Assembly: GCA_017542055.1 (NCBI GenBank)
Contig: JAFXXW010000006.1
Coordinates: 1-36,235, forward strand
Length of the DNA stretch: 36,235 nt
Direction of reading: 5' to 3'
From: Kiritimatiellia bacterium
GTDB taxonomy: Bacteria; Verrucomicrobiota; Kiritimatiellia; RFP12; UBA1067
Of the stretch, positions 8,528 through 36,235 are shown piece after piece. Both the position numbers and the translations under genes were made by a program. Positions within the stretch are counted from its first letter, which is position 1; each line of letters begins with the position of its first letter. The notes under the pieces were generated by a model. That model was given only the letters and a program-made list of their open reading frames with translations, was not told where the DNA came from and did not search any database.

Positions 8528-9418
8528 ATGAAAAAGCTGAAAGGTCTGGTAGCTGCGGCGCATACGCCGTTCAATCCCGATGGTAGCGTCAACCTGGCGC
8601 TCATCCCCAAGCAGGCGGAAACGCTGATCAAGCAGAAAGTGGTGGGCGTGTACATTTCCGGCACCACCGGCGAAGGCATCTGCTGCTCAATCGAAGAGCG
8701 CAAGGCCGTGTTCGACGCGTGGGTGAAGGCCGCCAAGGGCAAGCTCATCCTCATCGCGCACATCGGCGCGCTGGCGCTCCCCGACGTGCAGGAACTGGGC
8801 GCTTACGCCGTGAAGTGCGGCATGGACGCCACCTCCATCGTTCCCCCCAACTTCTTCAAGCCTGGCTCCATCGACGCGCTCGTCGCCTACCTCAAGGAAG
8901 CGCTCAAGACGTCCGAGAAGCTGCCGTTCTACTACTATCACACCGGCATGAGCGGCGTGAACTTCGACATGCAGAAGTTCCTGGAAGCGGCCGACGGCAA
9001 GATCAAGAATCTCGCGGGCATCAAGTTCAACTATCCCGACCTCTACATGTTCCAGCGCTGCCAGCGTTGCTGCGGCGGCAAGTACGACATCACCTGGGGC
9101 GTCGACGAATGGTTCTCGGGCGCGGTGGCGATCGGCGCGGAGAGCGCGATCGGGTCGACCTACAACTATTCGGCCGGCATCTACTACAAGATCTGGGAAG
9201 CCGTCAAGAAGGGCGACATCGCCAAGGCGAAGGCCGGCATGAAGAAGGTCTGCGACATCGTGGACATCCTGGTGCAGTACGGCGGCGTGGCCGGCGGCAA
9301 GGCCATGATGAAGGTGTGGGGACTCGACATGGGCGGCGTGCGTCTGCCCAACGTGTCGCTCACCGAAGAGCAGAAGGCCGATTGCGTGGCCCGTCTCAAG
9401 AAGATCGGCTACAAGTAA
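8528..9418 (+). CDS. nanA: N-acetylneuraminate lyase
   Basis: This TIM-barrel class I aldolase of the DapA/NanA superfamily is 296 residues. It carries GTTGEG (45-50, carboxylate-binding), the tyrosine run before HTGMSGVNF (Tyr137 as proton shuttle) and the Schiff-base lysine in LAGIKFNYPDLYMF (Lys166). The YYYH-then-GVNF pattern and the Asp after the lysine resemble N-acetylneuraminate lyases more than dihydrodipicolinate synthases. The reaction splits sialic acid into ManNAc and pyruvate. AAGGAG (8516-8521) sets the start. The epimerase two genes downstream can convert the ManNAc product, which supports the assignment. Confidence 0.88.
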   Translation: MKKLKGLVAAAHTPFNPDGSVNLALIPKQAETLIKQKVVGVYISGTTGEGICCSIEERKAVFDAWVKAAKGKLILIAHIGALALPDVQELGAYAVKCGMDATSIVPPNFFKPGSIDALVAYLKEALKTSEKLPFYYYHTGMSGVNFDMQKFLEAADGKIKNLAGIKFNYPDLYMFQRCQRCCGGKYDITWGVDEWFSGAVAIGAESAIGSTYNYSAGIYYKIWEAVKKGDIAKAKAGMKKVCDIVDILVQYGGVAGGKAMMKVWGLDMGGVRLPNVSLTEEQKADCVARLKKIGYK

Positions 9419-34793: not shown

Positions 34794-35921
34794 TTGCCTC
34801 CCCGCCCGCGAGTTTCCCGCGCCGAGCCGCGCCTGCCGCAACCGGGCCGACTCGTGGCGTTGCCGGTCGACCGGGCGCGCGGCGTCTTCGATCGCTGGCT
34901 GCGGGACGAACGTCTCGTCGACCGGATCGCGGCGCTGTCCTTCGCGCAGCATTCCGCCTTGGCGCGATCGGTCGGCTGGCTGCAGGCGCGCTGGCACGAA
35001 GAGGGCGAACTCACCGTCGCGCGCTTTCTCGCGTACGATTCGGTGTGGGAGGTGAATCCTTTCGAAGTGGGCGCGCGGCGACCGATGACCCGCCGGGCCT
35101 TTGCCGACTTGCGCGCGCGGATTTTGCGACTTTTGGACTTGCGGCGACTGTTGCGGCGACCGTGCCTCGCGCTCTCCAACGGCGAGACGCGTCGGGTGCT
35201 CTTGGCGCGCGCCTTGCTCAAGCAGCCGTCGATTCTCCTCCTGGACGATCCGGCCGCGGGTCTCGACCCCGCCCAGCGCGAGAAGCTCAAAAGCATCGTC
35301 CAGGCGCTTTGCCGGCGCGGCGTGGCCGTCGCGATGAGTTATCGCCATCGGGACGAAGTGCCGGGCGTCGCCGCGCCGCGCGCTGCGCGGCCGGAACCGA
35401 TTCCTGCAGCGTCCCCAAGCGCGTCCCGTCCGGTGGTGGAGATTTCCGATTTGACGCTGATGTTGGGCGCGCGACGGCTTTTCGACCGGCTGTCCTGGAC
35501 GGTGCGCGAGGGCGAACGGTGGGTGTTGCGCGGCGCCAACGGAGCGGGCAAGTCCACGCTGTTGTCGCTCGTGAGCGGCGACAATCCTTTCGCTTACGCC
35601 TGCGACGTCAAGGTGTTCGGCCAGGTCCGGGGCGAGGGCGCCACCTTGGACGCGGTGCGCCGGCGCATCGGCATGGTGAGCGCGGAGATGCAGGCGTACG
35701 AGGGGAAGAGTCCGGCGGCGCTCTTGGACGCGGCGCTCGCTCCGGGGCACGATCTCCTCCTTTTGGACGAACCTTTCATGAACATGTCCGCCCGCGAGCG
35801 CGCCGCGGCCAAGCGTCGCCTCGCGTCATACTTGGATCGACACCCCCGCACCGCCGCCATCCTCGTTTCGCACCGCCCGGACGACCTCCCGCCCCGCTTC
35901 ACCCGCCTCTTCACGCTGTAA
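34794..35921 (+). CDS. ModF-like double ABC ATPase with complementary degenerate halves
   Basis: This 375-residue protein has two ABC domains related to ModF/PhrA-type soluble ABC proteins. Domain 1 (about 1-200) has no Walker A but keeps a signature motif LSNGE (127-131) and Walker B ILLLDD, with Asp for the catalytic Glu and no H-loop His. Domain 2 (from ~213) has Walker A GANGAGKST (247-255), Walker B LLLLDEP (321-327) and H-loop SH (360), but the helical subdomain and signature motif are missing: only ~25 residues separate the Q-loop region from Walker B. One composite ATP site (domain 2 Walker A/B plus domain 1 signature) could still work; the other cannot. The start is TTG 34794. There is no membrane segment. 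Confidence 0.75.
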   Translation: MPPRPRVSRAEPRLPQPGRLVALPVDRARGVFDRWLRDERLVDRIAALSFAQHSALARSVGWLQARWHEEGELTVARFLAYDSVWEVNPFEVGARRPMTRRAFADLRARILRLLDLRRLLRRPCLALSNGETRRVLLARALLKQPSILLLDDPAAGLDPAQREKLKSIVQALCRRGVAVAMSYRHRDEVPGVAAPRAARPEPIPAASPSASRPVVEISDLTLMLGARRLFDRLSWTVREGERWVLRGANGAGKSTLLSLVSGDNPFAYACDVKVFGQVRGEGATLDAVRRRIGMVSAEMQAYEGKSPAALLDAALAPGHDLLLLDEPFMNMSARERAAAKRRLASYLDRHPRTAAILVSHRPDDLPPRFTRLFTL

Positions 35922-36071
35922 GTCGATACTCTCCCGCGAGTACGGGTCCGTGCCGTGTCCCATCGTGGCGTAGTACTTGCCTTTTCCGGCGGAGTTGGCC
36001 CCGCCGATGCGCTTAAGGGCGAAGGTGATTTCCTTGCACCGATTTATCCGCTTGGCTTGATGAATGTTCAT
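35826..36071 (-). CDS. Possible small minus-strand protein
   Basis: This is the only minus-strand ORF with gene-like signals: ATG at 36071 preceded by AGGAGGA (36074-36080), and upstream of that a four-palindrome array. The first ~50 codons (MNIHQAKRINRCKEITFAL, then IGGANSAGKGKYYATMGHGTDPYSRES) look protein-like and I do not recognise them. The remaining ~30 codons are antisense to the end of the ABC gene and look like chance, so the gene may be truncated by a deletion. An 81-residue product would be basic at the N-terminus. Alternatively the array belongs to a gene beyond the right edge. Confidence 0.4.
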   Translation of the reverse strand: MNIHQAKRINRCKEITFALKRIGGANSAGKGKYYATMGHGTDPYSRESIDLQREEAGEAGREVVRAVRNEDGGGAGVSIQV

Positions 36072-36235
36072 AGTTCCTCCTAGAAAAATTCGGTACTGCA
36101 CGGACGCTTTTTCAAAGTCTGGTAGACTTTGCGAAAAATCTACTAGACTTTTGGGAAAGTGTAGTAGACTTTTGCAAAAGTCCCCTATACTTTGAACTTT
36201 GCCCCCCGGAGAGATCGATTTCTCCCCGGGAGGCC
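35922..36235. other. Right-end region without a plus-strand gene
   Basis: These 314 bases hold the start of the possible minus-strand ORF, the palindrome array at 36114-36193, and an imperfect GC-rich inverted repeat at about 36204-36230 around an ATCGAT centre. No TGATATAAT-type promoter is present on either strand. The sequence is more AT-rich than its surroundings from 36080 to 36200. Confidence 0.6.
36114..36193. promoter_or_regulatory. Array of four palindromes with 21-bp spacing
   Basis: Four inverted repeats follow one another, with centres at 36122, 36143, 36164 and 36185, exactly 21 bp apart. Unit 1 (36114-36130) is a perfect 7-bp repeat AAAGTCT-GGT-AGACTTT. Unit 2 (36134-36152) and unit 3 (36156-36172) each differ at one arm position. 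Unit 4 (36177-36193) keeps AAAGT...ACTTT. The shared form is AAAGTCTAsTAGACTTT. Twenty-one base pairs is two helical turns, so all four lie on one face of DNA, as expected for cooperative binding of a dimeric regulator. Confidence 0.75.

Follow-up and report, generated by a model that had tools for sequence, protein, structure and literature searches.

What binds the palindromes close to the end of this contig, and which gene do they serve? The window, by which we mean the whole stretch of 36,235 nucleotides analysed from a Kiritimatiellia bacterium, forms the end of contig C12 in a 1.35-Mb genome of 31 contigs (G000; genomes, contigs and loci are designated here by G, C and L numbers). At 36114-36193 it harbours four palindromic units at exactly 21-bp spacing, AAAGTCTGGTAGACTTT, AAAATCTACTAGACTTT, AAAGTGTAGTAGACTTT and AAAGTCCCCTATACTTT, whose centres (36122, 36143, 36164 and 36185, respectively) and equal spacing are as given in the first-pass annotation. 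The consensus proposed there, AAAGTCTAsTAGACTTT, describes palindromes that are indeed present, but none of the four units carries it exactly. The arms pair at 7 of 8 positions in each of units 1-3 and at 5 of 8 in unit 4. Table 1 lists the features of the locus.

Table 1. Features at the right end of the window, from the contig end inwards
Feature	Position	Strand	Remarks
GC-rich inverted repeat GGGGAGAAATCGATCTCTCCGGGG	36200..36235	.	Adjoins the array; contig end here
Unit farthest from HU-like start codon	36177..36193	-	AAAGTATAGGGGACTTT on minus strand
Palindromic unit	36156..36172	-	AAAGTCTACTACACTTT on minus strand
Palindromic unit	36135..36151	-	AAAGTCTAGTAGATTTT on minus strand
Unit nearest HU-like start codon	36114..36130	-	AAAGTCTACCAGACTTT on minus strand
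Ribosome binding site AGGAGG	36076..36081	-	4 nt before ATG; read directly
HU-like gene, first 51 codons only	35919..36071	-	Truncated
ABC-type ATPase gene	34794..35921	+	Convergent with the HU-like remnant, which it abuts

The phased-palindrome score of the array is 26 out of 32, compared with a mean of 17.1 and a maximum of 19 for 20 dinucleotide shuffles, and TRF independently recovered it with periods of 21 (score 69) and 42 (score 102). For comparisons between loci we used a combined score, S, made up of palindromic matches and of the resemblance among four units spaced at a constant period, which overlooks arrays with irregular spacing; the window array reaches S = 1.61. An Rfam scan gave no match at the gathering score and one sub-threshold chance match. 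A CRISPR array was ruled out by the 4-bp linkers and the absence of cas genes. The neighbouring genes code for PEPCK, PFK, a SpoU methylase, Fe-ADH and an ABC protein.

The first-pass annotation correctly placed the array just upstream of a minus-strand ORF with a strong ribosome binding site (start at 36071), and held that no gene explains it. That ORF turns out to be what remains of the 5' end of an HU-like gene. Over its first 51 residues it matches the N-terminal part (residues 6-51 region) of a 266-residue protein from G072 (50% identity, E = 8e-9), which is of the HU-DNA_bdg kind (PF14848); with a complete HU domain absent and 51 codons remaining, the ORF itself has no Pfam match. Its frame continues antisense into the ABC gene to 35826, and as the match ends where the frame enters the 3' end of this convergent gene, the HU-like gene is truncated. 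Between the array and the ATG of this broken gene there is no clear promoter.

A pattern search allowing up to three mismatches revealed a second array of the window motif in G000, on contig C9, 200 bp from the contig end. It is followed, 12 bp on, by the last ~38 bp of the same HU-like gene (score 69, against at most 29 in 300 shuffles), and to judge from its sequence this copy is another deletion derivative. With 51 codons left in the window and a 3' end on C9, both G000 arrays of this motif thus sit on HU-like gene remnants. The same genome also codes for three intact C-terminal halves of this HU-like protein, which lie at the ends of contigs C20, C14 and C3. These copies have 196-229 bp in common, ending at about the stop codon, beyond which their flanks are unrelated; this indicates a multi-copy gene, dispersed in the genome, whose copies interrupted the assembly. 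Gene and array were dispersed as a unit, whose decay leaves solo arrays; the copies in the window and on C9 are remnants of this kind. Because the window gene is cut to 51 codons, its array can act only as a candidate site for the intact paralogs on C20, C14 and C3, or be a relic.

The nearly identical G075 genome, with 23 differences over 3357 bp (0.7%), carries the orthologous array on C95, with just two changes, both in one linker, and another array upstream of argG on C4. The window, C9 and G075:C4 arrays consist of four units each in the same order, and the AAAGTATAGGGGACTTT unit, an asymmetric TAGGGGA variant, holds the same position in each of these three paralogs, indicating that the distinct arrays descend from one. 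Across them, 55 of 68 palindrome, 3 of 12 linker and 8 of 19 flank positions are invariant, which bears out the initial observation that arms are conserved and linkers free. The module that was suspected to go on beyond the window edge does so in G075:C95, where an internally deleted DUF3987 gene is found about 290 bp past the array. Of the further copies expected in the genome and its relatives, those in G000 and G075 exist, but the motif is not genus-wide: among 58 genomes drawn from the genus, it occurs only in these two. An exact-consensus scan of genome contigs returned 42 stretches, those inspected being single sites, mostly in unrelated taxa, except G075:C4. A junction-pattern scan of viral contigs yielded 25 matches and no array; all look like single chance junctions, and many fall in coding-like sequence.

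Other features of G075 are recorded here. Tandem and inverted GGTTTCGCATT / AATGCGAAAC repeats lie between the DUF3987 end and the array on C95 (L071, 3450-3600), and a remnant of them lies upstream of the C4 array (L072, 4610-4650). Genes for a sigma-70-like factor and then a serine/threonine kinase (L072, 2932-4438) are located just upstream of the latter array, which precedes argG. On C1, a second, degenerate array of AAAGTCTACGCG in 22-bp steps is found beyond an HU-like gene's own array (L154, about 8920-9010), and its half-site resembles the window motif.

To define the protein family, we used a profile of ten HU-like proteins, nine of which match PF14848 HU-DNA_bdg at E<=0.01 (best, 2.1e-11), the first member scoring 39.4 against a cut-off of 30. 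One member matches DUF4469, and PDB 4fmr is a weak profile match to the HU-like proteins. The array-adjacent proteins thereby resemble the group of the HU/IHF superfamily that combines PF14848 with a DUF4469-like C-terminal domain, of which 4fmr is a solved example. Searches of NCBIfam, PHROGs and PADLOC gave no match, and no relatives turned up in viral contigs, queried with a single protein, or in phage or plasmid collections. The Treponema denticola protein TDE_2259 harbours the same two Pfam domains, PF14848 and DUF4469; it is treated as a non-specific HU-type binder, with no arrays reported, and its gene is numbered adjacent to that of the BspA protein TDE_2258 (PMC12724145). Genes for BspA-type leucine-rich surface proteins are also found beside one of our HU-like genes (L112, 2544-4424; G072:C4) and beside a solo array (L179, 12317; G070:C34).

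Phased palindromes, differing in sequence, came to light upstream of nearly all the other HU-like genes initially inspected. Of 162 genomes examined from the order, which are draft metagenome genomes with collapsed repeats, 54 encode relatives of the profile. Among the 64 HU-like genes with enough upstream sequence to be scored, a few near-identical copies included, 32 are preceded by a phased palindrome array at S>=1.25 and 37 at S>=1.15; without seven profile members, six of them positive, the former proportion is 26 of 57. Arrays were found neither downstream of the same genes (0 of 61) nor in intergenic upstream control regions (0 of 128), and S = 1.25 is reached by 5 of 896 windows of 440 bp taken at random from the genus, some of these being real arrays themselves. 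All 32 positive genes belong to the window's own family (f1), in several genera; for HU-like genes of f3, the order's next family, and of one more distant family, S is below 1.1 in 12 of 13 cases and borderline, at 1.20, in the other. The half of the HU-like genes devoid of an array by S includes tandem second copies and distant members. The period of the arrays is 21-24 bp, mostly 22-23 bp, and 21 bp in the window. The HU-like genes examined look monocistronic and occupy varied chromosomal settings, and several have a good sigma-70-type promoter (e.g. TTGACT-17-TATAAT) after the array and before the start codon.

The window array is apparently one case of a family of gene-specific DNA-site arrays that is undescribed as such; the literature searched, with most subscription journals outside its scope, yielded no description of gene-specific palindrome arrays. 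The operator-type interpretation of the first-pass annotation stands in that the sites lie upstream of one gene family and recur in the genome and its relatives, but a gene does account for the array. Likewise, phased palindromes upstream of an HU-like gene are the common layout among the relatives, but the motif changes from gene to gene.

The motifs are diverse (e.g. AAAAGGTGnCACCTTTT, AAATAGTACTATTT, CGCCTnAGGCG), and the consensus palindromes include CAAAAGGTGnCACCTTTTG, TAAAAGGTCnGACCTTTTA, TTTGCGGTCnGACCGCAAA, AAAAATAGTACTATTTTT, ATTTGTCAGCTGACAAAT, AAGTCGCCTnAGGCGACTT, AAATTGATGnCATCAATTT and TCGGGTCATATGACCCGA. In G070 alone, the HU-like genes account for at least six motifs unrelated to one another, and a DUF3987 gene has a further one. 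Motif similarity tracks protein identity over 38 gene-array pairs (Mantel r = 0.375, permutation p = 0.0002), also for pairs from different genomes only (r = 0.33, p = 0.0002). G031 and G146, of different genera, have the same palindrome and proteins that are 75% identical; AGTACT is common to G022 and G130, with proteins 47% identical; and two same-genome paralog pairs at 65-66% identity have unrelated motifs. Aligned residues 41-60 are among the least conserved in unrelated-motif paralog pairs (30-40%), compared with 50-95% in motif-sharing pairs.

Segment by segment, over 52-59 non-independent pairs at least 30% identical, identity in HU-domain residues ~40-66 is the best predictor of motif similarity (r = 0.70), followed by the rest of the HU domain (r = 0.47). 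The C-terminal domain is the weakest (r = 0.26; between genomes 0.16, p = 0.14), the contrast between segment and C-terminus being modest (bootstrap P = 0.03). Vertical inheritance of gene and array would also yield part of the motif-protein correlation. Co-inheritance alone would produce an overall correlation, but not its concentration in residues ~40-66, which is expected if the encoded protein reads the array. We consider it probable that each array is the binding-site array of the HU-like protein encoded directly downstream, with its own palindrome sequence per gene and a role in autoregulation. Judging from sequence, the array is most likely where the adjacent HU-like protein binds.

Arrays also occur away from HU-like genes. 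A solo array in G070 (C34:32317) was copied from an HU-like locus on C46 (150 bp, 94% identity), and in G017 a single motif, CTGGACTTCGAAGTCCAG (22 bp), forms two arrays that have no HU-like gene next to them (L182, 472; L183, 5069; G017:C39), one of the two adjoining uvrA-like coding sequence. Such solo arrays, like the one preceding argG in G075, may serve as secondary targets or be relics. An array of TTTGGTGCGCACCAAA palindromes (22 bp) was also noted near a sugar-transferase gene (L073, about 260; G076:C128), with no HU-like gene seen nearby. Other arrays accompany DUF3987 genes. They lie directly upstream of such genes, rather than of HU-like genes, in L109 (G022:C103, 1940-2090) and L172 (G070:C34, around 9145), with motifs TACCCCTAGGGGTA and AAAGTCCTAGGACTTT at 23 bp, and less palindromic direct-repeat arrays of 22-23 bp lie downstream of DUF3987 genes in L169 (G061:C61, 6881) and L171 (G011:C226, 5190). 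In the deleted DUF3987 genes of G075:C95 (L071, 3601-3927, minus strand) and G000:C24 (end of L106), N-terminal LTQVPGFLGEVTD is fused to C-terminal WATRFVTHVSAS, the G000 copy also having an in-frame TAG; fuller copies are found at the ends of contigs C15 (G000) and C2 (G075). The internally deleted genes have the appearance of non-autonomous forms derived from a multi-copy gene.

This linkage at some loci makes a connection with a mobile element plausible, and the arrays might be replication-origin iterons or another cis-acting site of an element encoding the DUF3987 (P-loop) protein. The deleted gene near the G075 array, the arrays accompanying DUF3987 genes in G022, G070, G061 and G011 and the breakage of the assembly by copies of gene and array are in keeping with such an element. 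Against it, most inspected HU-like loci have arrays but lack a DUF3987 gene in the several kb examined, the DUF3987 genes of G002, G027, G079 and G032 have no array, and the HU-like protein is without viral, phage or plasmid relatives in the collections searched. As a sole explanation DUF3987 is incomplete, and we regard this reading as unlikely.

A separate shared regulator, for which the HU-like genes would merely be targets, could account for the solo arrays, including that upstream of argG, and would be expected to impose one motif per genome. Instead, each gene has a motif of its own, six or more unrelated ones occurring in a single genome, and the motifs covary with the encoded HU domain, making such a regulator a slightly more doubtful proposition than the mobile-element site. 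The arrays might also be selfish palindromic repeats of the dispersed, REP/MITE-like kind, or hairpins in RNA, with no protein-binding function, as their dispersal and the copying of the array alone in G070 would allow. This we hold to be the least probable of the three, given their strict position upstream of one gene family (32 upstream, none downstream), the fixed two-turn period with free linkers and constrained palindromes, and the lack of an Rfam family for the array; moreover, the promoter follows the array in several cases, so that the array need not be transcribed.

If the HU-like protein does bind its own array, one dimer would occupy each palindrome, and with units two helical turns apart, 4-8 dimers would be aligned on one face of the DNA. 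We infer that their assembly may be cooperative, on or adjacent to the promoter, and that they may thereby fix how strongly the gene encoding them is expressed; repression is likelier than activation, though only by analogy. The sequence divergence among paralogous arrays would prevent cross-regulation within one genome.

Autoregulated repressors with multiple phased operators offer a parallel, in that helically phased palindromes of dimer size precede the gene of the regulator itself. Classical examples are helix-turn-helix proteins, whereas here the protein would be HU-fold, the units number 4-8 and the motif differs between paralogs within one genome. Plasmid iterons and par centromere arrays are likewise made up of sites of 17-23 bp in tandem, next to the gene whose product binds them, but the HU-like arrays apparently lack a Rep or ParA partner. 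Burroughs and colleagues reportedly described, in 2017, lineage-specific expansions of the HU superfamily, with multi-copy HU-domain proteins carrying extra C-terminal domains, as the proteins studied here do; they are said to have proposed that such proteins act against mobile elements and are not known to have reported cognate DNA-site arrays.

HU proteins are textbook low-specificity DNA packers. With somewhat less assurance than for the binding-site reading itself, we lean towards a broader view in which HU-fold proteins, unlike canonical HU, would read specific palindromes, each paired with a phased operator array particular to it. A single genome would then house six or more such pairs, mutually orthogonal, as mobile gene-plus-array units, new specificities arising via the helix1-turn-helix2 region of the HU domain. 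If this is true, and dozens of HU-like paralogs are each neighboured by a sequence-specific site array of their own, the specificity of HU domains could be read straight from genome sequence, as protein-motif pairs are available, and these bacteria would offer a natural collection of orthogonal regulator-operator pairs. It would also provide a concrete route to testing the role of multi-copy HU-like proteins in gut bacteria.
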